In this document: positions 13,556 to 43,215 of the stretch, in pieces | How the letters are laid out: the number at the start of each line of letters is the position of its first letter | Position numbering within the stretch: position 1 is the first letter of the stretch | DNA from: Liolophura sinensis | Taxonomy: Eukaryota; Mollusca; Polyplacophora; Chitonida; Chitonidae | NCBI RefSeq assembly: GCF_032854445.1 | Contig: NC_088299.1 | Location: 6,115,001 to 6,179,000, forward strand | Length of the DNA: 64,000 bases | Direction of reading: 5' to 3' | Notes under the pieces: model-generated | Database searches by the model: none | What the model saw: the letters and a program-made list of their open reading frames with translations, nothing else | Told to the model about the DNA's origin: nothing | Made by a program: the position numbers and the translations under genes

Positions 13556-13614
13556 ATCTCACCCCAGGCCTGTATGTATGATTTTAGCCTGTTAAGCACT
13601 GAATGTCCATAAAT

Positions 13615-13782: not shown

Positions 13783-14032
13783 TAAACCAGTAAACCATAC
13801 ATGTAGAAACTGACTTGTTAAATCTAAGATAATAGCCAGCTTTTATCAGATAAGTTTTCTGAGTGGTGCAACAATAAATTATGTTACTGCAAAGTAATGG
13901 TATGCTTTCTACAACACAATATCCGTTTACACCAACAAAAGTATTCTGATGGAAAATTGTGCCCCATATATAGCATTGTATCTTATAGCGGTAACATAAT
14001 TCTGCCAGTTTAACAGATGTTTTTTTTTTCAG

Positions 14033-26100: not shown

Positions 26101-29100
26101 GTGATGGTAAAACGCAAAGAGTGATCTTGGCGAATAGGTGATATTAGAATCCAGGTCGTGTAGCATGCTAGTTACTAAGTTGTGGATACTCCGACGTGGC
26201 CATCTAATTCCACACGATGACTATACAACCCCACACAGATATGACACAGAAAAGCCGGGTGAGGACATCTCGTCCCGATGGTAGAGAGCAAATCGCCCGC
26301 GAATAGTACTGTCTTCGTGCCGCGGGTCGCGAGCCTCTGGGCGAGGGGCGAAATGTCCTCATTTGGTTTCCATAGAGTAACGGTGTTGGATGGAATAAAC
26401 TTGACACGCCAGTTTTTGCAGTAATAACTTGTGACGTTGACAGTTCGTACCCACCGGAATACCTGTCTGAAAACATTTCGGTTAAAAGTAACAAAAATAA
26501 GACCATTGTGAAAGAGTTCGGATCCAAGAGCGATAATAACCATAATAACCCAACCTCGGACATGCTGAAATAATATGATAAAATGGCATGAATGAAAATG
26601 CATTGAAGTAGACGAAAATATGAAAATGATGCAACTTTCGGATATAAGATCGCGAAAAGTTATATGTTAATATGGTCTTTAATATTTTGTTTCGATTTTT
26701 CTTGCCGGAGAAAAGAGTATTTGATAATAATTTTGTATGGCTATTATGACCATCTTTTCGTATATATCGTCTTAATAATAACATTCGTAATAAGGATATT
26801 TGATAAATATATTTGAATGCAAATTTGTTTTTTTACATCTAAGCTCACGTGCTTAATCTGAATTATGATAATATATTTACGCATATATTAAAACTATAAA
26901 TATGATTAAAATTCTGGTTGAACACAACTGTTATGTGCACAAATACATTTATTACACAAGTTTAATATTCTCATGTGGAACATTATTGTGTACAGACAAT
27001 ATATACAAAAAGGTGGTCCCAAATACGCATCATACAAAAAAATACTTTCAAAAGACTATATTTGCAAATAGCTGTTCACACTCTATCAACATTTCTTACA
27101 AGAAATAAATATGCATAGAAATCTCAAGGAAGAATCAAAGAAAAACTTAATCCATTTCAATGTACTCTTTCGTGCTTTCTGCTTGCAGCCAATTGATGAT
27201 GCTCTGCGTAATGCACCGCGTATCCGGTATAATGTATGTGCGTCCGACACGGAGTTCGTGTTCGCCAAGGAGCCAACATGGGGAGACAACTCCATACAGT
27301 TACACCTAAACTGTGACGCAGAATACAAACTGAAACTGTGTGGCGAATCAGAAGTAGGAGGTTCTAATCATGGTGCCAACTTGACAATCCCTCCCTCTAT
27401 TTCTAAAGGTAAGTACATTATCTAACTTATCTAACGACCGCGCATTCCTTTCTGACATTGACCTCATATCTAATGGGTTTGCATACCTTTGTGACACATA
27501 TCCATTGGGGCTGCATATCTTTGTGACATCTGTCGAGACATCTGCTCGTATCCACTGATGGTACATGCCTTTGAGACATTTTTGAAGACACCTGATCACA
27601 TCCAGTAAGGTTGAAAACCTTAGTGTAAAATGTCAAGACGTCTGTTCATACCCAATAAGGTGCCTTGCATGCGTTAGTGTCATTTGTCAAAACGCCAGGT
27701 CATATTGAAAATGGTTGCATGCCTTTGTGAGATTTGTAAAGACGCTTGTTCACATCCAGTAAGGTTGTATGCCTTAGTGATATTTGTAAAGACGCTTGTT
27801 CATATCCAATAAGGTTGTACGCCTTTGTGATATTTGTAAAGACGCTTGTTCATATCCAGTGAGGTTGTACGCCTTTGTGATGTTTGTAAAAACGCACGTT
27901 CATATCCATTAAGGTTGTATGCCTTTGTGACCGTCGTCAAGACGCCTTCTCATATCCAATGATTTTGGATGCCATTTTTCTAGACGTTAAAAGGAAGACT
28001 TGATAATGAGGAATCATATTTTAATGCAGGTACTTACAGAAACTTTGACCTGATTGTTGAAGAGGATACAGATTTAAATGTCGTAATTATGACGTGGCCG
28101 GAATTCGCCCGAGATGTTCAACGCCTCAGCCCCGATGTTCAACACTTCACTGTGTATTACTGCAAACGTGGACATCTTGATATGCCAATCTGTAAGGTAA
28201 ACACATCATAGTAAATTCCTAAATTCATCTATACTTGTGTGATTGTTTTTAGCGTAATCCTGAAGCATTTTTTGCACTCATACGATGGCAGTCAGTTTTG
28301 TCGGTGGTGGAAACTATTGTGCTCGGGCGTGAACCACCGGACATCGGTAAATTACGGAAAATCTTTTCCACGTGTGACTTGCAGATATACACACCATACT
28401 GATGGAAGACAACATCAACGAACGTTGGGCTGCCCATACTGTCATAACAGCTTCGGCAACAGCTTATTGTCACAGGGGCCAAAACCAAATTGGCACCAGC
28501 TGGATTTGAACCTTTGTCCTCATCATGACCAGGGGTCGAGAGGCTGAGACAAACAATGCTGTATATTCTGTATATGATGTATTTAATTTTTGTTTGTAGG
28601 ACAACATTGAGTGGATACATTTACCTCCGTCAAACAACTATACGTTCAACTTAACCGAAGATTTTTTGAGGGTGACCGGCGACATAATGGTTGGATTATC
28701 CACGGACTCACAAAATACCACTGGCATTCTTTGGAGTCCGTGTGTATTCATGAAACGTGCAGGTATTTACGTAAATTTTTATATGCGAAGTCGCACTTCT
28801 TCCGTAGTGGCCGATCACTCATCGATTTACATGCATATGGATTTATCAACAGGGTTCAAATAAAGTGAGAGGCCTCGGTGGCCTACTAGTTAGCTTGCTA
28901 GGGCAACGCAATAGCCAAGAGGCCTCTCATCAATGTGGTCGCTGTGAGTTCAAGTCCAGCTTCCGCTGGCTTCCTTTCCGGTTGTACGTGGGTACGTCCA
29001 TCAGCAACCTGCAGATGGTCATTTATTTTTAATTAATGAAGAATCAGTTAAAGTACGTGACCGTGGAAAAAAATAACGTCAAAAGGCATGGAAATCAACA

Positions 29101-32100
29101 CGTAAATAGCATCCTGTATTCACAAATCCCTTACTTTCTACCTTTCATGTTTACCAAACAGATTTACAAAAACCACGGGGACTGCAGGTGACGGAGAACG
29201 AGGACCAGAATTTGGTGGTAAAGTGGAACCCCACTGAGTGTGAAGATCGCACCGGTGTTGTACAACACCCTTTTGTCAGACGATACCGTGTGGTGTACTG
29301 CGAGATAGACTCCAATATGTATTCAACTCAAGAACGACATCCGTGCCCAGGTTATTTGTTACTGTTATCTAACTAAGACGACTACTGCATTAAGTGTGTT
29401 AGTGACTTGGAATGTGGGTTTGCAAGTACATCCGTGGGATAGAAGTTAATGGATGGGTGGTACTTATGATTCTGTGGTAGTCAAATGGGCGGATAGGATG
29501 GCTGGTCGATCTGTACAGATGGGTAGTCAAATGGGCGGATTGGAGGATTGGTCGATTCTGTACGGATGGGTAGTTAAATGGGTGGATATGATGGCTGGTC
29601 GATCTGTAGGGATGGGTATTCAAGTGTGCGGACAGGATAACTTTGGATTCTGTAAGCATGGGTTGTCAAACGGGCGGATTGGATGACTGGTCGATTCTGT
29701 TGGGATGGGTTGTCAAACGGGCAGATTAAATGACTGGTTAAATATGTTCGGATGGGTAGCAAAATAGACGGAAAAGACGACTTGTCGATTCTGTACGGAC
29801 AAGTAGTCCAATGGGCGGATTGAATGACTTGTCAATTCTGTACGGATGGGTAGTCAAATGGACGGATAGGATGGCTTGACGATTCTGTGCGGATGGGTAG
29901 TCAGATGGGCGGATTGGAAGACTGGTCAGTTTAGTGCGGATGGGTATTCAACTGGGCGGATTGGATGACTGGTCAGTTTTGTGCGGATGGGTATTCAAAT
30001 GGCTGGATACGACAACTGGAGGATTTTGTACGGATGGGTAATCAAATAAATGGGTAGTATGACTGGTAAATTTATATAGGTAGTGCTGGTCAGTTGGGGA
30101 ACAAGATGACGGGTAGATTTTATCCATTTTTGTGTATATGAACAGATGGGCTGTCAGATAGACGTGTAGGTGCTCTGATGGGTTGTCAGATTGACGTGCA
30201 GATGTACTAATGGGTTGTCAGATAGACGTGCAGATGTACGGAGGGTTGTCAGATAGACGTGAAGATATACTGATGGGTTTTCAGATAGACGATCAGATGT
30301 ACTGTTGGGTTGTCAGATAGATGTGCAGATGTACTGATGGGTTGTCAGATAGACGTGCAGATGTACTGATCGGTTGTCAGATAGACGTGAAGATATACTG
30401 ATGGGTTGTCAGATAGACGTGCAGGTGTGCTGATGGGTTGTCAGATAAACGTGCAGCTAGATGTGAAGATGAACTGATGGGTGGTCAGATACACGTGTAG
30501 ATGTGCGGATGGGTTGTCAGATACACGTGTAGATGTACGGATGGGTTGTCAAATAGTCGTACAGATGTACGGATGGATTGTCAGATAGACGTGCAGATGT
30601 ACGGATGGGTTGTCAAATACACGTGCCGATGTACGGATGGGTTGTCAGATAAACGTGCAGATGTACGGATGGGTTGTCAGATAGGCGTGCAGATGTACTG
30701 ATGGGTTGTCAGATAGACGCGCAGATGTATGGATGGGTTGTCAGATATACACGCAGATGTACGGATGGGTTGTCAGATAAATTTGCAGATGTACGAATGG
30801 GTTTTCAGATGGACGTGCAGATGTACCGCTGGGTTGTCAGATAAACGTGAAGATGTACTGATGGGTTGTCAGATAGACGTGAAGATGTACCGTTGGGTTG
30901 TCAGATAAATGTGCAGATGTATGGATGGGTTGTCAGATAGACGTGCACATGTACTGATGAATTGCCGGATAGACGTGCAGATGAACTGATCGGTTGTTCG
31001 ATAGACGTGAAGATGTACCGATGGGTTGTCAGATAGAGGTGAAGATGTACTGATGGGTTGTCAGATAAATGTGCAGATGTACGCATGGGTTGTCAGATAG
31101 ACGTGCAGATGTACTGATGGGTTCTCAGATATATGTGTAGGTATACTAACATTTAATATGTAATGGGCAGATTAATGTATAAAAGGAGAGATGGGTTATC
31201 AGACAGAGCATTATATGTATAGACCCGAGGATTACGAACTTATCTTAGATTTAAGTCAAACTTAGTCTTAGCTTCAAAATAATTTATCACGCTAAAATTG
31301 TGCGGTAGGATTTTTTGGTCCACCACGGAAGGCTGTCTTAATTAGCGGTTATTAAATCCACCGTTAAGTTCAAGTTGAAGTTCAGGACTAATAATGCAAG
31401 GTAAGACTGTGTCTGACAAAAGTAAAGGTGACGCGTTGTCAAGATAATTGTGTAGCTGTAATTAGGGCCGGATGGGTCGTCAAGATAAATGTATAGCTGT
31501 AATTAGGGCCGGATGGGTCGTCAAGATAAATGTGTAGCTGTAATTAGAGCCGGATGGGTCGTCAAGATAAATGTGTAGGTGTAATTAGGGCCGGATGGGT
31601 CGTCAAGATAAATGTGTAGCTGTAATTAGGGCTAGATGGGTTTGTATTTCACACATGGATAGACAAGTGGAAGGATGCGTAGACAAGTGGAAATCAAGTT
31701 TGTACTCAACTCTACGAATCAATACCATTGACTTAAATGAAATTAAATTGCATTCAGCTTCAGAGAGAATGAAAATTGTTTCCAAGGATACCAGTGTCGA
31801 GCTCAGAAATGTGCGGCCGGGTTATCACTATGCAGTCGCTGTACAAGCCGTTGTTGAAGACAGAGATGGCCCGTGGACAGAATGGAAGGAAACACAGATA
31901 AGCCGTATGTATGAATGACACTACACCTTTGGATTATCGTAAGCATGCGCGTACCTTGTACACGTTGGTTGTGTTAAGTCTTTAACATTTTATGGACCTG
32001 CATGTGTAAGTACACAGTACCTCGATATTTTATGCGATCTTCTGGTGTGTTTTAACTGGGGCTGTTCTTAAATACTTATTCAGTACCACGTTAAACGCTA

Positions 32101-35100
32101 AGCACTCACTCACTCACTCACTCACTCTAAATACTTAGTGTTTTTGCTCGTGTTGTGTTATTTTACGTTATGTGTTTTAACTGGTGGTGTGTTTAAATAC
32201 ATATTGTGTTTTTACTCGTGTTGTTTTATATTTTGTGGTGCGTTTTAACTTGCGGTGTGTAAACACAAACTAGTAATTTGCTACTAATCTAGCATTTACA
32301 CATCTGAGACCGCAACTGAGGTAAGCTGACGAGAGGAGATATTTCATCGGAAGTATATGTGGCAGTTTGCCAATCTATCACACTGTCGTTACTACTCTGG
32401 TTTTCATCTCTGTCTTGTAGTCTTTTATATTTACCTGTGGTGTGTTTTAGTTTGCGATGTGTTACATGTATATCTTCCGGTTAGTTTTTTTTATCCGTTG
32501 TGTGTTATAATTTGTGCTGTGTTTTTACACCTCCGTGAACAAAGTTGACGGGGCGGGTGGGGGGTGGGGGGGGGGGGGTGTAACTGGAATGACCCTGTCT
32601 ATCCGATTTTCTGTAGGTGCGAATTTGCCCAAAATTTACCCAAAATACTGCGCCCTTTTCGATGGAACTATACATTTTGCCTTTCATTTGAACTTGTGCA
32701 TGTCTAAGTTTAATTGCAATCGGGTAATTATTTTCTAAAATTAATTTAGGGCTTGTCCATGTATTCAAACTTTGTCCATACAACTCTTCCTTAAGTACAA
32801 AAAATATTTCTATGAAACCTACCATACATCTTGCCTATCGTCTAAGCTCGTGCATTCTTAAGTCTAATTTAGGACTTTGCGTAAAAATGCATTTCCGTGT
32901 ATTCAGATTTTGTCCGTGCAAAACTTCCTAAAGTACTGAACCTATTTCTAAGAAAGGTAGCATACATCTTCTCTATAATCTAAACTTGTGCATGCTTAGG
33001 CTTAATTACCGTCGGGTAATTATTTTCATAATTACTCCAGTTGAGATACTTTGAGCAATAATGGATATTCATGTGCACTGTATTTTCTTTTGATTGCTAC
33101 ATTTCTCCATTCAAAATGGATGTACCAGTGGCGCAACCAATGAACACCACAATTGGTACATGAAACAATCTATGTGAAGCCACACTTGCCAACATAGTAT
33201 CCTGTCATTTCTTTGAAGTTTTTCTTAGTTTTCTTTCTTTAATTTTTGGAAATTTTGGGATATGGAACGGGGGCAGCTCGGACATCTGGATTCTAATTAC
33301 CTATGATATGTTTTTATATGTGGTGTGTTATCTTGTGGTGTGTAACGTGTGGGTTAACGTGTTTTAAGTTGTGGTTATCTTAAGTTATAGCAGGTAATGT
33401 GGTTTGTCTGTGGGATATCAGAGGTCGTGTGGTTTATCTTGTGGGTTATAACAGGTAAATGTGGTTTGTCATGTGGATTATAACTGGTAATGTGGTTTGT
33501 CATGTGGATTATAACTGGTAATGTGGTTTGTCATGTGGATTATAACTGGTAATGTGGTTTGTCATGTGGATTATAACTGGTAATTTGGTGTGTCTTGTGG
33601 GCTATAGCAGGTAATGTAGTTTGCCTCGTGGATTATACGAAGTAATGTGGTTTGTCTTATGGGATATAACAGGTAATGTGTTCTGTCTGTTGGGTTATAA
33701 CAAGTAGTGGTTTGTCTGTTGAGTTATAACAGGTAATGTCATTTGTCTGATGGATTATAGGATGTAGTGTGGTTTGTGTTGTGGGTAATGCGGCTTATCT
33801 TGTGGGCTATAAAAGGTAGTGTGATTTGTCGTGTGAGTTATAACAGGTAATGTGATTTGTCTCGTAGGTAATGTGATTTGTCTTGTGGGTTATAACAGGT
33901 AATGTGGTTTGTTTGGTGGGTTATAACAAGTAGTGTGGTTTGTCTTTGGGTTCTAACAGGTAAATGTGGTTTGTTTGGTGGGTTATAACAAGTAGTGTGG
34001 TTTGTCTTTGGGTTCTAACAGGTAAATGTGGTTTGTCATGTGGGTTATAACAGGTAATGCGGTTTGTTTGGTGGGTAATAGGTAGTGTGGTTTGTCTTTG
34101 GGTGATAACAGGCAAATAGGTAAAATATGACGGTGCTGCGACCGGACCATACTACTGTGAGCAGGGCTCATACAGTCTTCCTTGGAAACCAAACATTCCA
34201 CAATTTTTTGGGTGAAAAATGTACTCCTCTAAGAAATGTTTTACGATACCGAGCAGAAATGATTTCATTTTAAAACCTCCTCGCCTTTAGAACATGGATG
34301 CATTAACGATCTGACCCAGTTTTCATCTGCGGTATAAAAGTATTTTCTTACAGCGTTTATAGGGTGAATATGGTATTCAGTTTTTGTTCCTTATACATAG
34401 CTGACAAGATGGTGTATATTTGATGGGTTACGTCGACATCGAGGGATTTGCGAGTCTTAATGAATTGCCGGGCGTTACGCCACATCAGCAGTATATCACA
34501 GCCATTTCGTTATACAGGGAATAGACATCAGCCGCTCATTTATAGACCTGTGCACTCACCAGCCTTTTTAACAATTAACGGTCGATGTCATTCGCACAAT
34601 GCGCAAGAACACTTGCTATCTATCACACTAATGTGAATGTACGTCCGGCAAATTGTCTCAGTTTCCTCCACACATAACCCTGCCCTCTTTGTCGTGTGAG
34701 TGACAAAATTCTTAAGTGTATCGTCAAAAAAAAAAATTTATAACATTTGTTACCCCTGTGCCCAGCTTCGGTTTTGAAAAGATTTGTGCTGTTTTGATTA
34801 CCCTCACATTTGTCAGACGTTTTTCGGTTGTGAGAACTTTCAGGCCCTTAAACATATATAGGTAGGCTTTCTTTCATCTATGGGTAACAAATTCACGAAA
34901 AAGAATTTTGCTTGAGCATGCTGTGAACCGAAAAATGTTTACGATAATAGAGAAAACTTGAGCTTCTATAACGTTAGCTAACCATTCTGTGCGGTTCGGA
35001 AAAGGCCAATGAACTGTTCGGTCGGGCAATTCAGGCATTAATCATTAGCGTTTTATTCATTTCAGGAACTATAACAACAGGAGAAATAGCAGGAATTGTC

Positions 35101-38100
35101 ATTGGAAGCATTGTTGTGTTGTGTTTCTCACCTTACGGTCTGCTCGTACTCGTCAGGTAGGTACATGTATCGCACAGTACTACTGTGGTGTCTGACGCTG
35201 TATTGTTTTTAATCCTTGATCAACCTTAGGTCATATCTCGTATACGACGTTGAAAGCTATATCCCCAAATCTACTGAACCAAATCCAATGAGAAACAATT
35301 CATTGGAATGGCAGTGATGTAAAGCGAACGTAGAGAGCTGCACATGCGCTGAACAGAGTATGCATTCTCTAACGGGGTTTTCTGGCCCTCTACAAAAGGA
35401 GGTAAATCTTGTAACTCCTGAAACAGCAGCGCCCTCTACCTGCTTGGATAACACTGTGGTTTTTATCTATAATCATTTGCTGTGTCATTTAAATCGATTA
35501 TGTCTTTTTTTTTTCGTGTCGGTTTAAGAGTTTTAGGATGTGTTTTTCTGTAGTAAGGTGCCGTGGAATCTCATCATCACACTGCCATGGCGGGTTTTAC
35601 TCTCTCTGCTTTAGTGCTTTGTTGTCTATGTCTGGTCAGCAGTTTTGGGAGTTGGGAGCAAGATAAGCATGGCGAGGTGAACTTTTCCCAATATCGGCAA
35701 ACGATGATATTTGGTTGCTGATCAGGTTTTTATAAAATCTTCCTTATTGTACTCATATGGGACTAAAATATGTATGGTGAGACGAAGTGCTTCCCATATC
35801 GGCAACCGCAGAGATTTGGTACGGATGGGGTTTTTGTTTTTGTACAATCTTCTTTATTGGACTCAAATGAGAGTAAGATATGCATGGTGAGGTGTTTCCA
35901 ATATCGGCAAATGCTGAGATTTGGTGCCGATGGGGTTTTCATTGGGGTAAAATCTTCCTTATTGTACTCAAATGGGGGTAAAATAACGAGACGTGTTTCT
36001 TTCTGACTGCCATCGATTTTGACATGAGCTATATCGGTAATGATTATTTCCTTCTGTCGCATCATGGACAGTTCGGTATTTCTCATTTTTACCCCCCAAA
36101 CATTTACATTTTAGACGGATAAAGAAAAAGACGAGAGACAACTTTGTTTGTGAGTTACCACCGGAACTGGACGATTTGGTAAGACATACAAGCCAGAGCA
36201 AATCTAATTACATCAGGGATATTTTTGTCTGCCTGGGTATACTTTAATCAGTTTTTGCTACTACTTAAATACTTATTCCGCAGTTCCACATGCTTCCTTT
36301 GAGCTGCACTCCGGCAAGACGTGGGGAGGTCAGTCAGCAATCTGCGGATCGTGGATCTGCCTGGTTTCCTCACGACATAATGCTGGCCGCTTTCGTCTCG
36401 GTAAAATATTCTTGAGTACAGCGTAAAACACCAATAAAATGAAATAATTGAATTTTTTTCAGCCGTTTTAGCAAGTGATAACAGTATTTTATGAATGAGG
36501 CAGGCCTAACAGTTGAGTGCTGGTTTGTTATATTTATTTGATTAATGTTTTATGCCATGCAAAAGACAGTTCTTTCATATGTAACCCAAGGCACTTTGTA
36601 AGCCTTTTCACAAGTAACACAAGGCACATGGCAAGACTGAGCATATGTAACACAAAACACTTTGTAAGCCCATATGTAACACAAGACACTTTACAAGTCT
36701 GATCATGCATACGTAACACAAAGCACAATATGTCACATTATGTAACAGAAGACACTTTTCACACCGAAGTGTAACACAAGGCACCTTTTAAGTCTAATCA
36801 TATGTACCACAAGACAATTTAACATGCCTAATTATATGCAAGACAGGGCACTTTTACACGCCTAATTATATGTAGCACCATGCACCTTAAATGCCCAATT
36901 ATATGTAGCACAAGGCACTTTACAAGCCTAATTATAATTAACACAAGGCATATTTACATGCTTAATTATATGTAGCACCAGGCACTTTACAAGCCTGTCG
37001 GTGTAGTTGACCAGTAAGTGTTTATGTACATGTAGTCGTGTTTCTATCCATACAGAATCTCTACCCTGACTTGTCTCACTTACCTGGAAGGCTAGATGCG
37101 GCAATTACACCTGTAGACATGGCTGCAGCAAACTCTGCCCCGGTGCTCCCACGGGATGTACTACCTGTTAAGGTAGGGCTATTTTATTTATTTACTGGAG
37201 TGTAAACATTGAGCTCACTCAACAGGTGAACATCTGTGCGTGACGTGAATAAGTTCGTCAGCTACTTACCTAATGTGCGTGGTTTACTTCCTGCCTTACG
37301 GTTCCATCCAGACATAAGCGTGAATCCGCTTATGAAAACTAACCGAGGAGAATTATGAAACTCATTGAGTGTATATGCGAGACGTCAGGCGAAGTTCCGA
37401 TCCTTGTCCGATCGGTGCATAAATTTGCATACTTAATGAATCACGTGATTATTACTGGTCATTGGTTTACGTGTCGTAACTTCTCTGAATGATGTACAAA
37501 TTTCGTGTGCATCCTCCTTTTGCCCAACCTCAGATTAAGATTGAAGTGATTCGTACATATTTTTTGATGTAAATATATCATGATTGGATGTGACTCGCTT
37601 TTCTGTTATTTGCTCATATTTTGTAAGCTACTTTCAGGAGAATCGTCGAACTTCCATGTTATGTTGTGTATATTGTGAGATCATGTCATCAAAACCAACC
37701 CCCTCCGTGCATACGTTTTGTGCATGCAACGATTTCTTGTATTCTTACAGGTCTTTGGTTCCTGTGCATTACCTGCTTTAAATACTGCCCCATTTGGATA
37801 CATTTTGTGGCCAGGTTCCTCTTAAATTAATCATGCTAAAAAAACAAACTATAATTCTGCCTTAGGTTTTGCATATTCAAGTTTTGCCTCTGATTTTGAT
37901 TGGTCACTGCTTTCCATGCTACACACAGTTGTTCCAAATGTTGCCTGATTTCCCCAGACCAGGTGGCTTTTTTGTATTATTCATTTATTTATTTGATTGG
38001 TGTTTTACTCAAGAATATTTCACTTATACAACGGCAAACAACATTATGGTGGGAGGAAAGCGGGCAGAGCCCGGGGAAAATCCACGACCATCAGCAGGTT

Positions 38101-41100
38101 GCTGGGACACCTTCCCACGTACGGCCTGAGAATTTTTTTGTTTGTCAACAGATTATATTGTATATTATTATTACATACATGTATGTATGGATGTTTCAGG
38201 GGTTTACCTACGTGCTTCAATTGTTTTAAAGTGATTGTATATTAAATGTGAGGACAAATTGTGGTCTTTTTCAGGACGGGTACGTTCAGATGAGTGAGCA
38301 CCCAAGCACTAGAGCTAAGGTGGATGCTGTGAAGCTGAAAGAGACGGCGTTGCCACTTGACAGAGGACAAGGAGACAAAACCACAGGCCAGGCAAGCGTC
38401 AACCATAATTTCATCTCTCCGTCAAGCTTAGAGCCCGTTGGTGTTAAGACCACATTTCCACCAAGAACTATGGCTGTGGTGCCAGATATGAATCCTTCTG
38501 ATGGCAAAGATGAAAAGACTGGGAAATGCATAAAAACCTGCACTGAAACTTCAGTTATTACAAGCACCTTGAATAGCCAGGGTTATGTCACGGTAAACAC
38601 TGACAACACAGAACCTGGTAATTTTGACCCCAATGCAAATACAGGGGTTGATAGTTTAACGTCAGAAAGTAAAACAACAGCTAATACTATCCGGAAGGAA
38701 TGTGTTAGACCCAGTTTTCCAAAGCCTGGAAATTCGACATTTGGTAACGGAAAGAGTGAAGGAAATTATGTAACGAGAATTTCTGACAACAGAGCTACTG
38801 ATTTATACGGCAACTACAAAAATGTGGGGAGCGATTGTCCTAGGTCAGAAAATGAAACCATACATCATACTACCAAGGGAGAATATGTTAGAGCCAGTTT
38901 CCCAGAGTCTGGAAATTCAAAAATTGATAACGGAATGAGCGAGGGAATGTATGTAAGACCAATTTCTGACATCAGAGCAACTGATTTATGCGAGAGTAAT
39001 GTAAATGTGGTGATCGATTGTTCTAGGTCAGTGTCAGAAAATCCTACACTTGATACTGCAATGAGCGAAGGTAATTATACAATTTCTGACAGCATGGCAA
39101 CTGATAATCTTGGCACCAACATACATCAGGTTGCGGATTGCTCAACACCAGAAAACACATTAAGAGATGTTACCATGAGTGAGGAATACGTCAGAGCTAG
39201 TTTTCCAAATCCTGAAAATCCTACACCTGATACTAAAATGACAGAAGGGAATTATATAAGAGCAATTTCTGACAGCATGGCAACTGATAACCTTGGCTCC
39301 AACATACATCAGGTTGCGGATTGCTCAACACCAGAAAACACATTAAGAGATGTTACCATGAGTGAGGAATACGTCAGAGCTAGTTTTCCAAATCCTGAAA
39401 ATCCTACACCTGATACTAAAATGACAGAAGGGAATTATATAAGAGCAATTTCTGACAGCATGGCAACTGATAACCTTGGCACCAATATACATCAGGTTGC
39501 GGATTGCTCAACACCAGAAAACACATTAAGAGATGTTACCATGAGTGAGGAATACGTCAGAGCTAGTTTTCCAAATCCTGACAATCCTACACCTGATACT
39601 GAAATGACAGAAGGTAATTATATAAGAGCAATTTCTGACAGCATGGCAACTGATAAACTTGTCTCCAACATACATCAGGTTGCGGATTGCTCAACACCAG
39701 AAAACACATTAAGAGATGTTACCATGAGTGAGGAATACGTCAGAGCTAGTTTTCCAAATCCTGAAAATCCTACACCTGATACTAAAATAACAGAAGGGAA
39801 TTATATAAGAGCAATTTCTGACAGCATGGCAACTGATAAACTTGGCACCAACATACATCAGGTTGCGGATTGCTCAACACCAGAAAACACATTAAGAGAT
39901 GTTACCATGAGTGAGGAATACGTCAGAGCTAGTTTTCCAAATCCTGAAAATCCTACACCTGATACTAAAATGACAGAAGGGAATTATATAAGAGCAATTT
40001 CTGACAGCATGGCAACTGATAACCTTGGCACCAATATACATCAGGTTGCGGATTGCTCAACACCAGAAAACACATTAAGAGATGTTACCATGAGTGAGGA
40101 ATACGTCAGAGCTAGTTTTCCAAATCCTGACAATCCTACACCTGATACTGAAATGACAGAAGGTAATTATATAAGAGCAATTTCTGACAGCATGGCAACT
40201 GATAAACTTGTCTCCAACATACATCAGGTTGCGGATTGCTCAACACCAGAAAACACATTAAGAGATGTTACCATGAGTGAGGAATACGTCAGAGCTAGTT
40301 TTCCAAATCCTGAAAATCCTACACCTGATACTAAAATAACAGAAGGGAATTATATAAGAGCAATTTCTGACAGCATGGCAACTGATAAACTTGGCACCAA
40401 CATACATCAGGTTGCGGATTGCTCAACACCAGAAAACACATTAAGAGATGTTACCATGAGTGAGGAATACGTCAGAGCTAGTTTTCCAAATCCTGAAAAT
40501 CCTACACCTGATACTAAAATGACAGAAGGGAATTATATAAGAGCAATTTCTGACAGCATGGCAACTGATAACCTTGGCTCCAACATACATCAGGTTGCGG
40601 ATTGCTCAACACCAGAAAACACATTAAGAGATGTTACCATGAGTGAGGAATACGTCAGAGTTAGTTTTCCAAATCCTGAAAATCCTACACCTGATACTAA
40701 AATGACAGAAGGGAATTATATAAGAGCAATTTCTGACAGCATGGCAACTGATAACCTTGGCTCCAACATACATCAGGTTGCGGATTGCTCAACACCAGAA
40801 AACACATTAAGAGATGTTACCATGAGTGAGGAATACGTCAGAGCTAGTTTTCCAAATCCTGAAAATCCTACACCTGATACTAAAATGACAGAAGGGAATT
40901 ATATAAGAGCAATTTCTGACAGCATGGCAACTGATAACCTTGGCACCAATATACATCAGGTTGCGGATTGCTCAACACCAGAAAACACATTAAGAGATGT
41001 TACCATGAGTGAGGAATACGTCAGAGCTAGTTTTCCAAATCCTGACAATCCTACACCTGATACTGAAATGACAGAAGGTAATTATATAAGAGCAATTTCT

Positions 41101-42429
41101 GACAGCATGGCAACTGATAAACTTGTCTCCAACATACATCAGGTTGCGGATTGCTCAACACCAGAAAACACATTAAGAGATGTTACCATGAGTGAGGAAT
41201 ACGTCAGAGCTAGTTTTCCAAATCCTGAAAATCCTACACCTGATACTAAAATAACAGAAGGGAATTATATAAGAGCAATTTCTGACAGCATGGCAACTGA
41301 TAAACTTGGCACCAACATACATCAGGTTGCGGATTGCTCAACACCAGAAAACACATTAAGAGATGTTACCATGAGTGAGGAATACGTCAGAGCTAGTTTT
41401 CCAAATCCTGAAAATCCTACACCTGATACTAAAATGACAGAAGGGAATTATATAAGAGCAATTTCTGACAGCATGGCAACTGATAACCTTGGCTCCAACA
41501 TACATCAGGTTGCGGATTGCTCAACACCAGAAAACACATTAAGAGATGTTACCATGAGTGAGGAATACGTCAGAGTTAGTTTTCCAAATCCTGAAAATCC
41601 TACACCTGATACTAAAATGACAGAAGGGAATTATATAAGAGCAATTTCTGACAGCATGGCAACTGATAACCTTGGCTCCAACATACATCAGGTTGCGGAT
41701 TGCTCAACACCAGAAAACACATTAAGAGATGTTACCATGAGTGAGGAATACGTCAGAGCTAGTTTTCCAAATCCTGAAAATCCTACACCTGATACTAAAA
41801 TGACAGAAGGGAATTATATAAGAGCAATTTCTGACAGCATGGCAACTGATAACCTTGGCTCCAACATACATCAGGTTGCGGATTGCTCAACACCAGAAAA
41901 CACATTAAGAGATGTTACCATGAGAGAGGAATACGTCAGAGCTAGTTTTCCAATTCTTGAAAATCCTACACCCGATACTGAAATGACAGAAGGTAATTAC
42001 ATAAGGGCAATTTCTGACAGCATGGCAACTGATCTTGGTGGTTTCAACAGATTTAATAAAGTCGATTGGGCAACTTTACAAAATGTAACCACTGATGAAA
42101 TGACTGATGGAAATTCTGAAAACACACTCACTCAAAATGGATGCAAAAGCATACACATCGAAGCTAGTACAGGTAAAGCACATTCAGAATTTACAAAAGC
42201 TGAAAATCAATCTGACGAAAAATGTAGTATTATTAATTATGAAAACACTGTCAATGGCAAAAGTTCCAACGAATACTCCGATGTCAATTTCAATTGTACT
42301 ACGAACGATACGCATACAGACGCTGATGCTAATTACATTCTTACCATGAATGGTACGAATGCAAAAACAGATGACAATTATTCTCGGACGAGTAACATTG
42401 CGAATACACATCCGTATGTCAAATTATAA
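14092..42429 (+). CDS. gp130/Domeless-like class I cytokine receptor with a giant tyrosine-repeat cytoplasmic tail (16 coding exons)
   Basis: Joining 14092-14185, 15479-15775, 18013-18109, 21152-21324, 21904-22046, 24149-24293, 25269-25360, 27189-27408, 28030-28196, 28600-28762, 29162-29350, 31758-31904, 35066-35156, 36115-36178, 37056-37172 and 38275-42429 gives 6,354 nt, an uninterrupted 2,117-residue frame; every intron is GT-AG and every phase matches. Domain order: signal peptide (about 1-21), Ig-like (about 32-130), cytokine-receptor homology region (about 130-316, with C-X9-C-X-W), further Cys-containing beta-rich segments (about 317-530), a membrane-proximal FN3 (531-642, PWTEW), one TM helix (about 648-672), Box1-like ELPPELDD, then the tail. 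In known families this layout (Ig + CRH + three FN3 + TM) is that of gp130, LIFR-like receptors and insect Domeless, which signal through JAK/STAT at the plasma membrane. Odd points are the 61-residue tandem repeats in the last exon and the absence of YxxQ. Ligand and kinase are not readable from sequence. Least certain border: the start of exon 12. Confidence 0.86.
14465..14750 (-). mobile_element. Second SINE-like family sharing the main tail (intron 1)
   Basis: The tail (CCATACTCAAGAATTTTTCAC) matches the main SINE, but the body (CGGCCCTTGGCAAGTTTCTG, ACCATATTGGTGGA) differs. Related copies lie at about 23,405-23,545 and 28,244-28,545. An (AATA)n run follows at 14,763-14,795. Confidence 0.6.
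15479..15775 (+). CDS. Receptor exon 2: Ig-like domain
   Basis: The exon is bounded by TTATTTCAG and GTAAGT, phase 1 in and phase 1 out, the usual pattern for a shuffled extracellular module. It encodes about 99 residues with the two Ig cysteines in LNLICLVKNG and HAGLYSCRLH; the second is the D/H-A-G-x-Y-x-C signature of strand F. An N-terminal Ig domain ahead of a cytokine-receptor homology region is the gp130/Domeless arrangement. The codon split across the junction with exon 1 (G|AA) reads Glu. Confidence 0.85.
15821..16012 (+). mobile_element. SINE in intron 2
   Basis: GGCTCAGGAGCCTCACACCA, B box GAGTTCAAGTCC, then TAATGCTGGCCGTCG and a degraded tail. Begins 45 bp after exon 2. Confidence 0.8.
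16330..16980. repeat. Interspersed repeat interrupted by a MITE-like insert (intron 2)
   Basis: 16,330-16,434 and 16,912-16,975 together match the uninterrupted copy at about 56,425-56,590 (shared TGTATAGGTGAAT, CAACAAAGGG-type and GCAGGATTCSAGAATATATC strings). Confidence 0.6.
16444..16883. mobile_element. MITE-like insert with short terminal inverted repeats
   Basis: Left end GGACCCCCATTA and right end TAATGGGGGTC are inverted repeats, about 440 bp apart. The uninterrupted copy of the host repeat at 56 kb lacks this segment. No transposase frame. Confidence 0.5.
17020..17757. repeat. 24/21-bp minisatellite in intron 2
   Basis: About 30 copies of GATATAACAGGTACACATTG plus TTGT, some lacking three bases. 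Because units are multiples of three, minus-strand frames stay open with Cys/Tyr-rich repeats; they have no start or splice context and are not called. Confidence 0.95.
17765..18010. repeat. About 34-bp repeat abutting the exon 3 acceptor
   Basis: Units contain GAAAATGTAACATTATATG and TTTTAGAGCTG or TTTTACAGCTG. The final unit supplies the functional acceptor TATATTTTAG of exon 3. Confidence 0.85.
18013..18109 (+). CDS. Receptor exon 3: first half of cytokine-receptor D1
   Basis: The exon starts after TATATTTTAG and ends before GTAAGT (phase 1 in, phase 2 out). It encodes PLNCIVYNWDRLTCRWNVT, a textbook class I cytokine receptor C-X9-C-X-W motif. The acceptor lies at the very end of a 34-bp tandem array whose units contain similar TTTTAG/TTTTACAG strings. 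Loss of this short exon would shift the frame. Confidence 0.87.
18130..18620 (+). repeat. Interspersed repeat in intron 3
   Basis: Shares CTAAACTTGTGCATG, ATGGATTTTCATG, the GTCCATGCAA...CTTCTAAAGTA block and GTACATGAAACA-type strings with 32,650-33,250. A related copy in reverse orientation occupies 49,540-49,850. Confidence 0.6.
19226..21030. repeat. Large imperfect inverted repeat with a SINE in each arm (intron 3)
   Basis: The left arm 19,226-19,846 is matched in reverse complement by 20,076-21,030 over its whole length, from GTTCAGTATAT at the outer edge to CATCACTGTTGTCCC at the inner edge, with a 229-bp spacer. The right arm has about 355 extra bases (20,253-20,608). Each arm holds the same SINE copy (19,262-19,520 minus; about 20,745-20,990 plus), so the SINE was present before the arms were duplicated. 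Confidence 0.85.
21152..21324 (+). CDS. Receptor exon 4: second half of D1
   Basis: The acceptor is a T-rich tract ending TTTTGTAG; the donor is G|GTATGT. It enters in phase 2 so that GG|T completes a Gly, giving the continuous string WTIVGPFYYECPHHAPNFCEW across the exon 3/4 join (split here as WTIVG + PFYYECPHHAPNFCEW). Four cysteines (ECPHH, NFCEW, MCLVS, TRCYY) can supply the remaining D1 disulphides. It leaves in phase 1. Confidence 0.86.
21447..21770. repeat. 44-bp minisatellite in intron 4
   Basis: Repeats of TTACTCTGATGTTGTCTTTG then CCTCAGTCTTCACATGCTAC at 21,492, 21,536, 21,580 and on. A stray copy lies at 22,718-22,756 in intron 5. Confidence 0.92.
21904..22046 (+). CDS. Receptor exon 5: FN3-like D2, N-terminal half
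   Basis: The exon is bounded by GACTTACAG and GTGTGT (phase 1 in, phase 0 out). It opens VKPDPVPLKDLRLSS, the proline-rich linker and A strand typical of D2 in cytokine-receptor homology regions, and ends LLYRFHLKGGSVNQ. An N-glycosylation sequon (NNTS) is present. The acceptor sits right beside the end of a 44-bp minisatellite in intron 4. Confidence 0.84.
22047..22909. other. Intron 5, first part
   Basis: Apart from the isolated 44-bp repeat copy near 22,720, nothing recognised. Confidence 0.4.
22910..23172 (-). mobile_element. Full-length tRNA-derived SINE (intron 5)
   Basis: From the tail TTTTACGCCGTACTCAAGAA to the head with GCTAGCGCGCTAGCCAACTG, reverse orientation. The GCTAGCGC element is triplicated in the tRNA-like head. 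Confidence 0.88.
23405..23850 (-). repeat. SINE-like fragment and dispersed repeat (intron 5)
   Basis: 23,405-23,545 belongs to the second SINE-like family (ATGTTTAACACCATACTCAA, CACACCGTATTGGTGGAAAA). 23,775-23,840 (ACTATCACACTGT...CTTTACTATCCATGC) recurs at 32,367 and 35,565. Confidence 0.55.
24149..24293 (+). CDS. Receptor exon 6: FN3-like D2, C-terminal half
   Basis: A long pyrimidine tract ends CCGTAAG at 24148; the donor is G|GTAAGC (phase 0 in, phase 1 out). It encodes TWNSTSLYYHFTGLTPYTRY followed by TLAVTCVPKEQSQYTSEAV, the W...TS....L.P.T.Y.L.V.C run of a D2 FN3 domain. The place where WSxWS would stand reads SQYTS, so the signature is degenerate here. Confidence 0.84.
24540..24800 (+). 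repeat. Interspersed repeat part A (intron 6)
   Basis: ACATGCACGCAAAAC...ACCACCCCTAACATTTACTT matches 53,715-53,780. Confidence 0.65.
24817..25080 (+). mobile_element. Full-length SINE (intron 6)
   Basis: Head GGGGCTCCGTGGCCGAGGGA, B box TAGTTCAAGTCC, and a tail ending CGGCGTAAAAAACCATTCAA with AAATAAGTAAAT. Confidence 0.88.
25269..25360 (+). CDS. Receptor exon 7: start of third beta-sandwich domain
   Basis: Acceptor TTTTCTTGAAG, donor CAG|GTGCAA (phase 1 in, phase 0 out). It encodes VPDGPPGVTSGGFWQGLCRD and then a D-V-I-V-Y-L-Q strand. VPDGPPG is a typical inter-FN3 linker. The exon is flanked on both sides by pieces of one interspersed repeat (see findings). Confidence 0.8.
25380..25850 (+). 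repeat. Interspersed repeat part B (intron 7)
   Basis: Strings TTTTGACTCCT, TAGGCTGCATAAT, TCAAAAAAGTCTATCTTAGG and GCCATGTTT match 53,920-54,510 in the same order and orientation. Confidence 0.7.
25851..27188. other. Intron 7 remainder
   Basis: A SINE tail fragment (minus) lies at 25,990-26,024. A GC-richer patch at 26,175-26,603 is open for 142 codons on the minus strand (contains TKTVLFAGDLLSTIG) next to AT-rich sequence; it may be a captured gene or transposon fragment, but I cannot name it. Confidence 0.35.
27189..27408 (+). CDS. Receptor exon 8: rest of third beta-sandwich domain
   Basis: Acceptor TGCTTGCAG, donor G|GTAAGT (phase 0 in, phase 1 out). 73 codons including RIRYNVCASD, HLNCDAEYKLKLCGE and GANLTIPPSI. 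The cysteine pattern and alternating hydrophobics fit an FN3-like domain, but the sequence is divergent and I see no WSxWS. Confidence 0.83.
27440..27985. repeat. About 50-bp minisatellite filling intron 8
   Basis: About ten units of the type GCCTTTGTGATATTTGTAAA then GACGCTTGTTCATATCC, regular in the 3' half and decayed in the 5' half. Confidence 0.88.
28030..28196 (+). CDS. Receptor exon 9: fourth domain, N-terminal half
   Basis: Acceptor TTTTAATGCAG, donor AAG|GTAAAC (phase 1 in, phase 0 out). The split codon with exon 8 (G|GT) reads Gly. It encodes NFDLIVEEDTDLNVVIMTWP followed by QHFTVYYCKRG, matching an FN3 B strand (VxxxW) and C strand (xYxVxY). A 50-bp minisatellite fills the intron just upstream. 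Confidence 0.83.
28244..28545 (-). mobile_element. Second-family SINE-like element (intron 9)
   Basis: Reverse orientation. Tail with CACTCATACGATGGCAGTCA, then a tRNA-like B box CTGGATTTGAACCTTTGTC at about 28,500. Occupies most of the 403-bp intron. Confidence 0.6.
28600..28762 (+). CDS. Receptor exon 10: fourth domain, C-terminal half
   Basis: Acceptor TTTTTGTTTGTAG, donor G|GTATTT (phase 0 in, phase 1 out). Encodes DNIEWIHLPPSNNYTFNLTE and later GDIMVGLSTDS and WSPCVFMKRA. Sequons NYT and NLT suggest an exposed glycosylated domain. Confidence 0.82.
28865..29025 (+). mobile_element. SINE 5' part (intron 10)
   Basis: Head GGCCTCGGTGGCCTACTAG, B box GAGTTCAAGTCC, truncated after CTGCAGATGGTCA. 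Confidence 0.82.
29162..29350 (+). CDS. Receptor exon 11: membrane-proximal FN3, N-terminal half
   Basis: Acceptor TTTACCAAACAG, donor CCAG|GTTATT (phase 1 in, phase 1 out). Encodes LQKPRGLQVTENEDQNLVVK, then WNPTEC and RRYRVVYCEID, a clear FN3 A-B-C strand series. About 2.4 kb of three different minisatellites follow in intron 11. Confidence 0.84.
29420..30110. repeat. About 47-bp minisatellite (intron 11, array 1)
   Basis: Units contain GGATGGGTAGTCAAATGGGC and GATTGGATGACTGGTCGATT. Confidence 0.9.
30140..31140. repeat. 32-bp minisatellite (intron 11, array 2)
   Basis: About 31 copies of GATGGGTTGTCAGATAGACG then TGCAGATGTACT. Confidence 0.95.
31438..31640. repeat. 41-bp minisatellite (intron 11, array 3)
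   Basis: Five copies of GTCAAGATAAATGTGTAGCT then GTAATTAGGGCCGGATGGGTC-like sequence (shown in two parts). Shares GGATGGGT with the two preceding arrays. Confidence 0.93.
31758..31904 (+). CDS. Receptor exon 12: membrane-proximal FN3, C-terminal half with PWTEW motif
   Basis: The donor C|GTATGT at 31904 is clear. The acceptor is the weakest in the gene: CATTCAG at 31757 is chosen; TTCAG at 31763 is also in phase (two residues shorter), and GCGTAG at 31681 is in phase but adds about 25 residues that the FN3 fold does not need. Encodes TSVELRNVRPGYHYAVAVQ and DRDGPWTEWKE, i.e. strands E-F-G and a WSxWS-like motif directly above the membrane. Confidence 0.78.
31905..33310. other. Intron 12, first part: dispersed repeats
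   Basis: ACGTTAAACGCTAAG then (CACT)n at 32,103-32,127 is a typical SINE-like tail. 32,140-32,530 is loosely repetitive GTGTGTTTTAACTGG. 32,548-32,579 is a G-rich run. 32,650-33,250 is the interspersed repeat shared with 18,130-18,620. Confidence 0.55.
33355..34125. repeat. About 33-bp minisatellite (intron 12)
   Basis: Units of the type TATAACAGGTAATGTGGTTT then GTCTTGTGGGT. Four near-identical copies at 33,470-33,580 are the youngest. Confidence 0.93.
34126..35065. other. Intron 12, last part
   Basis: No repeats or exons recognised other than the exon 13 acceptor at its end. Confidence 0.4.
35066..35156 (+). CDS. Receptor exon 13: transmembrane helix
   Basis: Acceptor TTTATTCATTTCAG, donor AG|GTAGGT (phase 1 in, phase 2 out). 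Encodes TITTGEIAGIVIGSIVVLCF and SPYGLLVLVR, a single hydrophobic helix stopped by basic residues that continue in exon 14 (RRIKKK). This fixes a type I topology. Confidence 0.87.
35310..35445 (+). repeat. Dispersed repeat fragment (intron 13)
   Basis: GGCAGTGATGTAAAGCGAAC, GTAGAGA and the GAGTATGC block match the inner part of the intron 3 inverted repeat (20,164-20,216). Confidence 0.65.
35650..35995. repeat. About 108-bp tandem repeat, three copies (intron 13)
   Basis: Units contain CAATATCGGCAAA, GAGATTTGGT, ATCTTCCTTATTGTACTCAA and GTATGGTGAG. Open frames across it are products of the repetition. Confidence 0.85.
36115..36178 (+). CDS. Receptor exon 14: juxtamembrane, Box1-like
   Basis: Acceptor CATTTTAG, donor TTG|GTAAGA (phase 2 in, phase 0 out). 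21 codons: RIKKKTRDNFVCELPPELDD plus Leu. The basic stop-transfer cluster is followed within about ten residues by ELPPELDD, in the position where class I receptors carry the proline-rich Box1 that binds JAK FERM-SH2. The Box1 role is inference. Confidence 0.8.
36285..36446 (+). mobile_element. SINE 3' part (intron 14)
   Basis: GCAATCTGCGGATCGTGG, ATAATGCTGGCCGC and the tail AAATATTCTTGAGTACAGCG then TAAAACACCAATAAAA. Confidence 0.8.
36575..37000. repeat. About 33-bp minisatellite (intron 14)
   Basis: Units of the type ATATGTAACACAAGGCACTT then TACAAGCCTAATT. Confidence 0.88.
37056..37172 (+). CDS. Receptor exon 15: cytoplasmic linker
   Basis: Acceptor TCTATCCATACAG, donor AAG|GTAGGG (phase 0 on both sides, 39 codons). 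Encodes NLYPDLSHLPGRLDAAITPV, then DMAAANSAPVLPRDVLPVK. A hydrophobic/acidic Box2-like role is possible but not demonstrable. As a symmetrical phase 0 exon it could be skipped without a frameshift. Confidence 0.8.
37173..37978. other. Intron 15, first part
   Basis: No repeat or exon recognised in about 800 bp. Confidence 0.4.
37979..38132 (-). mobile_element. SINE (intron 15)
   Basis: Tail TTGATTGGTGTTTTACTCAA and body CATTATGGTGGGAGGAAAGC, reverse orientation, ending 142 bp before exon 16. Confidence 0.82.
38275..42429 (+). CDS. Receptor exon 16: giant cytoplasmic tail exon with 61-residue tandem repeats
   Basis: Acceptor GGTCTTTTTCAG; stop TAA at 42427-42429; 1,384 codons. It begins DGYVQMSEHPS, a YxxM site in the position of a first signalling tyrosine, then has GYVTV and a unique linker. 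From about 38,698 come two diverged 61-residue units and a fused partial unit, then sixteen regular units (39,181 onward, every 183 bp), then a unique end with NYEN, EYSDV, NYILT, NYSRT and terminal PYVKL. My hand count is about 45 tyrosines. No YxxQ is present. The array is intronless and in frame throughout, and near-identity at synonymous positions suggests recent homogenisation. The known comparison is p130Cas, whose substrate domain has many repeated YxxP sites; here the repeated motifs are YVRA and YIRA. Confidence 0.88.
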   Translation, partial: DGYVQMSEHPSTRAKVDAVKLKETALPLDRGQGDKTTGQASVNHNFISPSSLEPVGVKTTFPPRTMAVVPDMNPSDGKDEKTGKCIKTCTETSVITSTLNSQGYVTVNTDNTEPGNFDPNANTGVDSLTSESKTTANTIRKECVRPSFPKPGNSTFGNGKSEGNYVTRISDNRATDLYGNYKNVGSDCPRSENETIHHTTKGEYVRASFPESGNSKIDNGMSEGMYVRPISDIRATDLCESNVNVVIDCSRSVSENPTLDTAMSEGNYTISDSMATDNLGTNIHQVADCSTPENTLRDVTMSEEYVRASFPNPENPTPDTKMTEGNYIRAISDSMATDNLGSNIHQVADCSTPENTLRDVTMSEEYVRASFPNPENPTPDTKMTEGNYIRAISDSMATDNLGTNIHQVADCSTPENTLRDVTMSEEYVRASFPNPDNPTPDTEMTEGNYIRAISDSMATDKLVSNIHQVADCSTPENTLRDVTMSEEYVRASFPNPENPTPDTKITEGNYIRAISDSMATDKLGTNIHQVADCSTPENTLRDVTMSEEYVRASFPNPENPTPDTKMTEGNYIRAISDSMATDNLGTNIHQVADCSTPENTLRDVTMSEEYVRASFPNPDNPTPDTEMTEGNYIRAISDSMATDKLVSNIHQVADCSTPENTLRDVTMSEEYVRASFPNPENPTPDTKITEGNYIRAISDSMATDKLGTNIHQVADCSTPENTLRDVTMSEEYVRASFPNPENPTPDTKMTEGNYIRAISDSMATDNLGSNIHQVADCSTPENTLRDVTMSEEYVRVSFPNPENPTPDTKMTEGNYIRAISDSMATDNLGSNIHQVADCSTPENTLRDVTMSEEYVRASFPNPENPTPDTKMTEGNYIRAISDSMATDNLGTNIHQVADCSTPENTLRDVTMSEEYVRASFPNPDNPTPDTEMTEGNYIRAISDSMATDKLVSNIHQVADCSTPENTLRDVTMSEEYVRASFPNPENPTPDTKITEGNYIRAISDSMATDKLGTNIHQVADCSTPENTLRDVTMSEEYVRASFPNPENPTPDTKMTEGNYIRAISDSMATDNLGSNIHQVADCSTPENTLRDVTMSEEYVRVSFPNPENPTPDTKMTEGNYIRAISDSMATDNLGSNIHQVADCSTPENTLRDVTMSEEYVRASFPNPENPTPDTKMTEGNYIRAISDSMATDNLGSNIHQVADCSTPENTLRDVTMREEYVRASFPILENPTPDTEMTEGNYIRAISDSMATDLGGFNRFNKVDWATLQNVTTDEMTDGNSENTLTQNGCKSIHIEASTGKAHSEFTKAENQSDEKCSIINYENTVNGKSSNEYSDVNFNCTTNDTHTDADANYILTMNGTNAKTDDNYSRTSNIANTHPYVKL
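38698..39180 (+). repeat. Diverged edge units of the 183-bp coding repeat
   Basis: Two recognisable 61-residue units (ECVRPSFPKPGN... and EYVRASFPESGN...) and a partial third (SENPTLDTAMSEGNY...) precede the regular array. They keep the SFP, SEGxY and ATDL anchors but differ widely elsewhere. The first has Cys in place of the first Tyr (ECVRP). They read as the oldest copies. Confidence 0.8.
39181..42060 (+). repeat. 183-bp in-frame tandem repeat, 16 units (61 residues each)
   Basis: Units begin at 39181, 39364, 39547, 39730, 39913, 40096, 40279, 40462, 40645, 40828, 41011, 41194, 41377, 41560, 41743 and 41926, spacing exactly 183 bp. Each starts EEYVRASFPNP and carries GNYIRAISDSMATD, then NIHQVADCSTPENTLRDVTMS. 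Variation is limited to a few positions: ENP/DNP, TKM/TEM/TKI, DNLGS/DNLGT/DKLVS/DKLGT and A/V in YVRA. The last unit is diverged (MREEYVRASFPIL, DLGGF). Confidence 0.97.
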
Positions 42430-42639: not shown

Positions 42640-43215
42640 TGTAAATGTACGAATATCAGTATCAATTATAGCCTTACCGGTAAAAGTATGAATACAAATC
42701 CGGATGTCAATTATAACCTTGCCAATAATAGTACGAATACAGATCATGATGTCAATTATAACCTTACTGGTAAAAGTACGAATACAGACCCGGATGTCAA
42801 TTATAACCTTACCAGTAATAGTACGATTACAGATCCGGATGTCAATTATAACCTTACCAGTAACAGTACGAATACAGATCCGGATGTCAATTATAACCTT
42901 ACCAATAATAGTACGAATGCAGATCCGGATGTCAATCATAACCTTACCAGTAATTATACGATTACAAACCCGGATGTCAATCATAACCTTACCAGTAATA
43001 GTACGAATGCAGATCCGGATGTCAATCATAACCTTACCAGTAATAGTACGACTACAGATCATGATGTCAATTATATGCTTACCAGTAATAGTACCAATGC
43101 GGATCCGGATGTCAACTATAACCTGACCACTTATAGTAAGGATACAAATCCGGATGTCAATTATAACCTTACCAGTAATAGCAGGAATACAGATATAGTT
43201 GCCAATTTTAGTCTT
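42640..43215 (+). repeat. 45-bp tandem array beyond the receptor stop, open in the receptor's register
   Basis: About 12-13 units encoding NTDPDVNYNLTSNST-like 15-mers, open from 42,625 to 43,311. This frame equals the frame of exon 16, and the unit resembles the last residues of exon 16 (TDADANYILTMNGTN). Stops at 42427, about 42553 and 42619 separate the two. It is either 3'UTR derived from former coding sequence or an alternative C-terminal exon. Confidence 0.85.

Follow-up and report, generated by a model that had tools for sequence, protein, structure and literature searches.

The last exon of a gp130-like receptor gene in the 64-kb stretch of DNA analysed here (the window) carries sixteen tandem copies of a 61-residue segment with two tyrosines each, all of them within a cytoplasmic tail of 1,445 residues. 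The gene model, the coding frame, the repeat, its youth and the better conservation near tyrosines in two of three comparisons between old copies are seen directly. From its sequence, the gene is best described as encoding a gp130-like receptor whose tail has been amplified, for which a signalling role is plausible. The fuller proposal, that the tail grew to its present length by tandem duplication of the two-tyrosine segment and thereby gives SH2 docking, has in our judgement about an even chance of being correct.

Sixteen exons on the forward strand were joined in one frame encoding 2,139 amino acids, with one stop, at the end. The parts follow in the order signal peptide, immunoglobulin (Ig) domain, four-cysteine module, FN3 domains, transmembrane segment and tail. 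Splice sites were scored with generic weights, and all phases from the Ig exon onward are consistent. Exon 1 (14092..14185), which joins in frame, encodes the signal peptide MKIILVQLLWYILFLSGHAGATPA and was the only candidate in positions 1-15470 under the limits applied (an early hydrophobic stretch, a donor above 4 and the right phase). Exon 2 (15479..15775) encodes an Ig-like domain matching Pfam ig with an E value of 5.5e-4, its 20.6 bits lying below the cut-off of 21.8. The two conserved cysteine pairs of D1 in the cytokine-receptor module are present in the sequence, the first, LNCIVYNWDRLTCRW, in exon 3 (18013..18109), where IL6Ra-bind also matches weakly, short of its cut-off (E 0.52), and the second, YYECPHHAPNFCEW, in exon 4 (21152..21324). 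The second FN3 domain of the module is divided between exon 5 (21904..22046), placed by splice scores, and exon 6 (24149..24293), which has a donor of 4.8 and an uncertain 5' edge at 24149 with a weak acceptor (-1.4). Further FN3 sequence is encoded by exon 7 (25269..25360), exon 8 (27189..27408; acceptor 3.4, donor 8.0), exon 9 (28030..28196) and exon 10 (28600..28762); exons 7, 9 and 10 were placed by splice scores, and exon 10 also by alignment with the sibling receptor described below (GILWSPCVF here, GIVWSPCMF in the sibling). The two parts of the last FN3 domain, in exon 11 (29162..29350) and exon 12 (31692..31904), form the best stretch of the Pfam fn3 match to the whole protein (E 3e-12); the 5' edge of exon 12 (31692) is uncertain, this boundary having been set by hand so that the frame holds. 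Exon 13 (35066..35156; acceptor 4.6, donor 6.8) contains the transmembrane segment, recognised by its hydrophobic sequence, and exon 14 (36115..36178; splice scores) the juxtamembrane sequence RIKKKTRDNFVCELPPELDDL, which is without a canonical PxP Box1. The cytoplasmic exon 15 (37056..37172) was placed by splice scores and aligned with the sibling tail, and exon 16 (38275..42429), defined by its open frame and splice site, supplies the rest of the tail and the stop.

The features used as criteria for class I cytokine receptors were those described in PMC7444064. WSxWS was not found in D2, which ends in CVPKEQSQYTSEAVHLNLTT; the related WTEW occurs in the last FN3 domain, in exon 12. Reading by eye revealed no PxP Box1 in the first 110 residues of the tail, where ELPPEL and PVLP are present. 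Because D2 is without WSxWS, we call the receptor gp130-like by homology and not a canonical class I member, and because the tail is also without a PxP Box1, JAK binding by this receptor is only putative, and might take forms other than a PxP Box1. Two JAK-type FERM models gave zero matches in the genome, but as the controls were silent too, this result carries no weight. Among solved structures (PDB), the best direct relative is IL-31RA, with an E value of 0.013 across exons 4-7, and homology to the gp130-family ectodomain is indicated indirectly, through a sibling receptor.

This sibling is a second gp130-like receptor gene in the same genome, on contig C7 at about 10122358-10159358, first located by a weak IL6Ra-bind match that, at 15.6 bits, did not reach the cut-off of 24.3. 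When part of the window ectodomain was used as a query for paralogs, all six matches were to the window receptor's own exons and the sibling was missed, so that this search rules out close paralogs only. With a hand-made concatenate of exon pieces as query, the sibling's best PDB relative was gp130 (E 1.7e-8), followed by receptor phosphatase FN3 chains (5.8e-8). In a single comparison, the sibling and the window ectodomain aligned over 386 columns with 20% identity (E 2e-16), including the exon 10 motif given above. The sibling has a transmembrane candidate at 10149192. The pieces of its tail, which lie close to homopolymer runs, do not share one frame and were left unjoined, and the gene may be a pseudogene, be mis-assembled, or have further introns or splicing. 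The distal tail piece contains four tyrosines, all YV or YL (VPYVQIS, PEYVSAT, GGYVSHQ and APYLNTI), another piece contains two (YVVYDDI), and a third open piece one (AYCRG); TRF found only a 3-base repeat in this region. When compared with the first 420 of the 1,445 residues of the window tail, the distal piece aligned across the exon 15/16 junction (LPKSDL...PVIVPYVQIS against LPRDVL...PVK/DGYVQMS, the slash marking the junction) with an E value of 0.007 for that comparison; when each partner was shuffled 2,000 times, scores as high came up 33 times for the sibling piece and 24 times for the window tail. This match is modest alone but rightly placed at the junction, and it speaks for exon 16 as the receptor's true tail. 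The splice pair at the junction, 37172/38275, scores 5.1 and 3.9. An initial annotation of this DNA had taken exon 16 for the last exon of a gp130-like receptor; our exons 13-16 are the same as those it gave, and the phases of the sixteen exons, the sibling homology and the weak tail match across the junction make that assignment very probably correct. The dN/dS ratios among old copies of the repeat and the open non-repeat parts of the exon, both presented below, support the view that exon 16 has been protein-coding over evolutionary time, and we consider it highly probable that it is translated as a receptor tail.

Exon 16 starts after an AG acceptor and ends with a TAA stop at 42427-42429, and among the 1,385 residue-or-stop positions of its frame, the sole stop is the last one. 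Before the units, in 38275-39174, the exon frame is open while the other five frames contain 7 to 36 stops, and behind them, in 42103-42426, it is again open while the other five contain 1 to 13. TRF reported a single array in the exon, at 39037-42033, with a period of 183, 16.4 copies, 97% matches, 0% indels and a score of 5616. Comparison of the unit sequences placed sixteen tandem units of 183 bp, or 61 residues, at 39175..42102 on the forward strand, with starts from 39175 to 41920 spaced exactly 61 codons apart in perfect register. The exon contains 45 tyrosines, 32 inside the units and 13 elsewhere, and exon 15 adds one to give 46 in the whole tail. The coordinates and frame of exon 16, the sixteen 61-residue units and the 32 repeated tyrosines with about 13 unique ones, all claimed in the initial annotation, are thus borne out; its claim of a fixed context for each tyrosine holds for the second, GNYIRAI in 16 of 16 units, and for the first in 14 of 16 (EEYVRAS), units 9 and 14 departing from it with EEYVRVS. 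Tyrosine makes up 3.2% of the tail, an ordinary density for proteins, which we count against the docking reading. The unique C-terminal part (42103..42429) contains five tyrosines, the last in the terminal HPYVKL. The array is not a product of chance, since among the best-scoring candidates in the 609-Mb genome all 17 matches to the unit fell within it and no copy was found beyond exon 16; likewise, when the exon's first 361 residues were the query, 16 of 16 best-scoring genome matches fell inside the exon. By eye, MSEEYVRAS and MTEGNYIRAI, the segments around the two tyrosines of the unit (39175-42102), are alike, as if the unit had perhaps been born from an older internal duplication.

A domain scan of the tail pieces 38275-39036, 39175-40089 and 42034-42426 revealed no convincing globular or kinase domain. 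A Peptidase_M32 match on the repeat (25.6 against a cut-off of 25.1) had no stretch passing alone and was judged spurious. A folded repeat domain was likewise rejected, AlphaFold2 on two units giving a mean pLDDT of 32.4 with 122 of 122 residues below 50, from a shallow alignment of 8 window rows. The tail is probably unfolded, as its richness in T, N, S, D, E and P and the pLDDT of 32 on two units weakly suggest.

About 230 bases past the stop lies another array, of twelve 45-bp copies (VNYNLTSNSTNTDPD; TRF, 42661..43200, forward strand), which is open in the tail frame. A continuation of the tail into this array is conceivable by eye; it was rejected on the substitution pattern, 16, 13 and 13 changes over the three codon positions and 10 silent changes against 11.1 expected, counted in 11 of the 12 copies with the last left out. 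On this pattern, the array is best seen as a non-coding, 3' flanking minisatellite, and the splice sites that an extension would require score poorly (donor 42413, -2.5; acceptor 42660, -2.7). To the eye, DVNFNCT, ANYILTMNG and DNYSRTSN, at the end of the coding sequence, resemble diverged copies of the 45-bp array, and the stop of exon 16 resembles a one-base shift against its register. An inserted element between the stop and the array was also considered and rejected: the 231 bases there have a single match elsewhere, 82% over 66 query bases, with no sign of a mobile family. In the 64-kb window as a whole, Rfam gave no match at its gathering threshold. A 182-residue open frame on the minus strand (52901-53446), in which P, G, Y and S are abundant, begins near MSYYAGNIPPPEKSGMFPPGSYPP and resembles the N-terminus of an annexin- or peflin-type protein.

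Within the 61-residue array, units 1-15 are near-identical and fall into five sequence types, and of the 43 differences between units 16 and 1, over 183 bases, 35 lie beyond base 114. Units 5-9 are identical to units 10-14 over 915 bases and units 2-4 to units 5-7 over 549 bases, and these identical blocks indicate that the array grew recently, in blocks of three and of five units. Directly upstream, at 38551..39174 on the forward strand, sequence comparison revealed older, diverged copies of the unit, namely P0 (doubtful and partial), P1, P2 and P3 (partial); neither these nor the 45-bp array had been recorded in the initial annotation. Their residue identity to unit 1 is 8/46 for P0, 25/60 for P1, 27/55 for P2 and 41/46 for P3. 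Among the six tyrosine positions that the old copies cover, five are kept and one is changed from Y to C, the change being counted against the docking reading.

Selective constraint was evaluated separately on old and young copies. Among the old copies, dN/dS was 0.58 between P1 and unit 1, 0.36 between P2 and unit 1 and 0.58 between P1 and P2; it was 0.71 between P3 and unit 1 and 0.59 between unit 16 and unit 1. For the doubtful P0 the ratio was 1.14 with P1 and 0.76 with unit 1, which counts against docking. The contrast between tyrosine-centred and other parts was calculated with P1, P2 and unit 1, leaving out P0, P3 and unit 16. When P1 and P2 were compared with unit 1, 20.5 of 98.7 replacement sites (0.21) were changed within five residues of the tyrosines and 71.2 of 173.7 (0.41) elsewhere, whereas silent sites were not spared near tyrosines (14.5 of 24.3, or 0.60, against 24.8 of 48.3, or 0.51, elsewhere). 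One-sided Fisher tests gave P values of 0.018 for P1, 0.007 for P2 and 0.0004 for the pooled pairs, both of which share unit 1; the pooled contrast was equalled by 5 of 60 circular shifts, and with four residues on each side instead of five the P values were 0.08 and 0.07. The third comparison, P1 with P2, displayed no tyrosine-centred contrast. The tyrosine parts are thus better kept in two of three old-copy comparisons, in line with docking sites, which makes it likely, though not proven, that the old tyrosine blocks are constrained. In the 15 young units there are nine codon differences, 7 replacement and 2 silent, with no sign of constraint. Such a ratio is, by rule of thumb, about what is expected of unconstrained sequence. 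The evidence of constraint therefore bears on the old copies and not on the number of young units.

These results must be weighed against a serious rival, namely that the array is a neutral exonic minisatellite, in which a segment of a disordered tail was duplicated by unequal exchange, the tyrosines being passengers and the length being tolerated. We regard this as quite possible. Arrays arise easily in this genome: tandem arrays with a period of at least 10 and at least 3 copies occupy 20% of the window in 24 blocks, many of them in the introns of the receptor, and in seven 10-kb control stretches of the genome their share ranges from 0 to 58%. Neutral expansion would also fit the recent identity of the 915-bp blocks, the excess of replacement over silent differences in the young units and the second minisatellite close behind the stop; the reading frame would let pass any unit length divisible by three, and the youth and homogeneity of the array are accounted for equally well. 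What this explanation does not lead one to expect is that in P1 and P2, relative to unit 1, the parts centred on tyrosines are spared by replacement changes and not by silent ones, that dN/dS in these comparisons is below 1, and that tyrosine motifs of the same type are present in the tail of the sibling.

The docking reading draws further on the motifs themselves. Patterns were taken from PMC7444064, in which the STAT5 pattern, Y[VLTFIC].., is termed promiscuous. Forty of the 46 tail tyrosines fit this pattern and 35 fit a loose SOCS pattern, 32 of these 35 lying within the array, and the repeated YVRA and YIRA match both. By comparison, YxxP occurs once among the 46, and neither the STAT3-type YxxQ nor YxxF occurs among them. 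The YxN and YxxM patterns, which unlike the others are general background knowledge, occur three times and once, respectively. Two observations count against docking: outside the array the STAT5 pattern fits 8 of 14 tyrosines, a number equalled in 384 of 10,000 shuffles, and in the sibling the YDDI tyrosine, one of six counted, falls outside it. A STAT_bind model search found one gene, with matches in two exons, on contig C1 near 88912700, and an exon beside these matched STAT5A/B alone in the PDB (4 of 4 sequences, E 0.001 or better); the sole STAT gene detected thus looks STAT5-like.

Taken together, the repeated tyrosines may or may not serve as SH2 docking sites, two outcomes to which we give about equal weight on sequence grounds. 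If they do, ligand binding would lead an associated JAK or other tyrosine kinase, on the receptor or on a partner chain, to phosphorylate many of them, and a STAT5-type STAT and SOCS-like SH2 proteins would dock on the repeats, whose sites are of two kinds, nearly equal, and number at most 32. With so many similar sites on a single flexible chain, avidity and the local concentration of STAT would rise, so that copy number might set the gain of the signal, and SOCS would presumably contend with the STAT5-like STAT for the same repeat sites. A more specific version, in which the array is a length-polymorphic, multivalent docking polymer of STAT5 type and the cytokine response varies between individuals with allele length, is put forward tentatively and seems rather unlikely. 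More doubtful still is that the array is a sink or brake, with phosphorylated repeats drawing SOCS or phosphatases, or holding STAT unproductively, so that a longer array dampens the response; the SOCS pattern fits 35 tyrosines, of which the array holds 32, and this would suit it, but that pattern is loose and sequence cannot tell a sink from STAT docking, and we consider it improbable. Finally, it is very improbable that exon 16 lies outside the receptor, is untranslated, or owes its array to the assembly: identical 915-bp blocks are of the kind that assemblers may miscount, so that the copy number may be wrong, and the sibling tail match is weak, but against this stand the scored splice pair and the single frame through sixteen exons, a tail match that spans the junction, open non-repeat parts, and dN/dS below 1 among P1, P2 and unit 1.

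If the repeats are phosphorylated, the receptor would provide a natural experiment in which signal strength can be related to how many near-identical docking sites a single receptor carries; engineered receptors with chosen tyrosine motifs have already been described. If the docking reading is true, the tails of cytokine receptors could evolve through expanding minisatellites, by which immune signalling would be tuned quickly and reversibly, and the copy number of the array is predicted to vary among individuals. Even a neutral array would show what length and valence a receptor tail tolerates.

The plan of this receptor, with signal peptide, Ig domain, cytokine module, FN3 domains, transmembrane segment and kinase-less tail, is that of gp130 (IL6ST), Domeless and molluscan IL6R-like receptors; the domain plan of IL6R and gp130 is given in PMC13203501, where IL6R is traced to Mollusca. 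The genome analysed here is itself taken to be that of a mollusc: on contig C8, eight matches to the Haemocyan_bet_s model stand one after another, and for the one compared further the best matches were haemocyanins such as KLH1. For gp130, five membrane-distal tyrosine motifs are reported (PMC13203501), and of the class I receptors surveyed in PMC7444064, IL-4R alpha has the longest tail, at 575 residues; unlike gp130, the window receptor has a tail of 1,445 residues with 46 tyrosines, 32 of them repeated, and no YxxQ. The word "repeat" does not occur in the main texts of these two papers, and among the titles and opening parts of abstracts listed for open-licence PMC papers, we recognised none that describes tyrosine repeats in tandem in the tail of a cytokine receptor. 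The sibling receptor has a homologous ectodomain and similar tail tyrosines (YVQI, YVSA, YVSH and YLNT), and the only repeat that TRF shows in its tail region is of 3 bases. The substrate motif of p130Cas is YxxP, and a parallel with it drawn in the initial annotation is not borne out at the motif level, as YxxP accounts for one of the 46 tyrosines and the repeats are YVRA and YIRA. The substrate domain of p130Cas is disordered and consists of proline-rich pseudo-repeats with substrate tyrosines (PMC3983058); it differs in belonging to a cytoplasmic adaptor and in having pseudo-repeats where the window tail has near-identical units. Tandem tyrosine segments in variable number within a disordered tail are likewise found in the EPIYA-C region of CagA, which is a bacterial effector and not a receptor, has another motif and is reported with up to six copies (PMC4623810). 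Duplication of EPIYA-C increases SHP2 binding more than hundredfold (PMC4623810), and the array described here would, if its length varies and tunes the response as tentatively put forward above, be an animal receptor counterpart of that effect.
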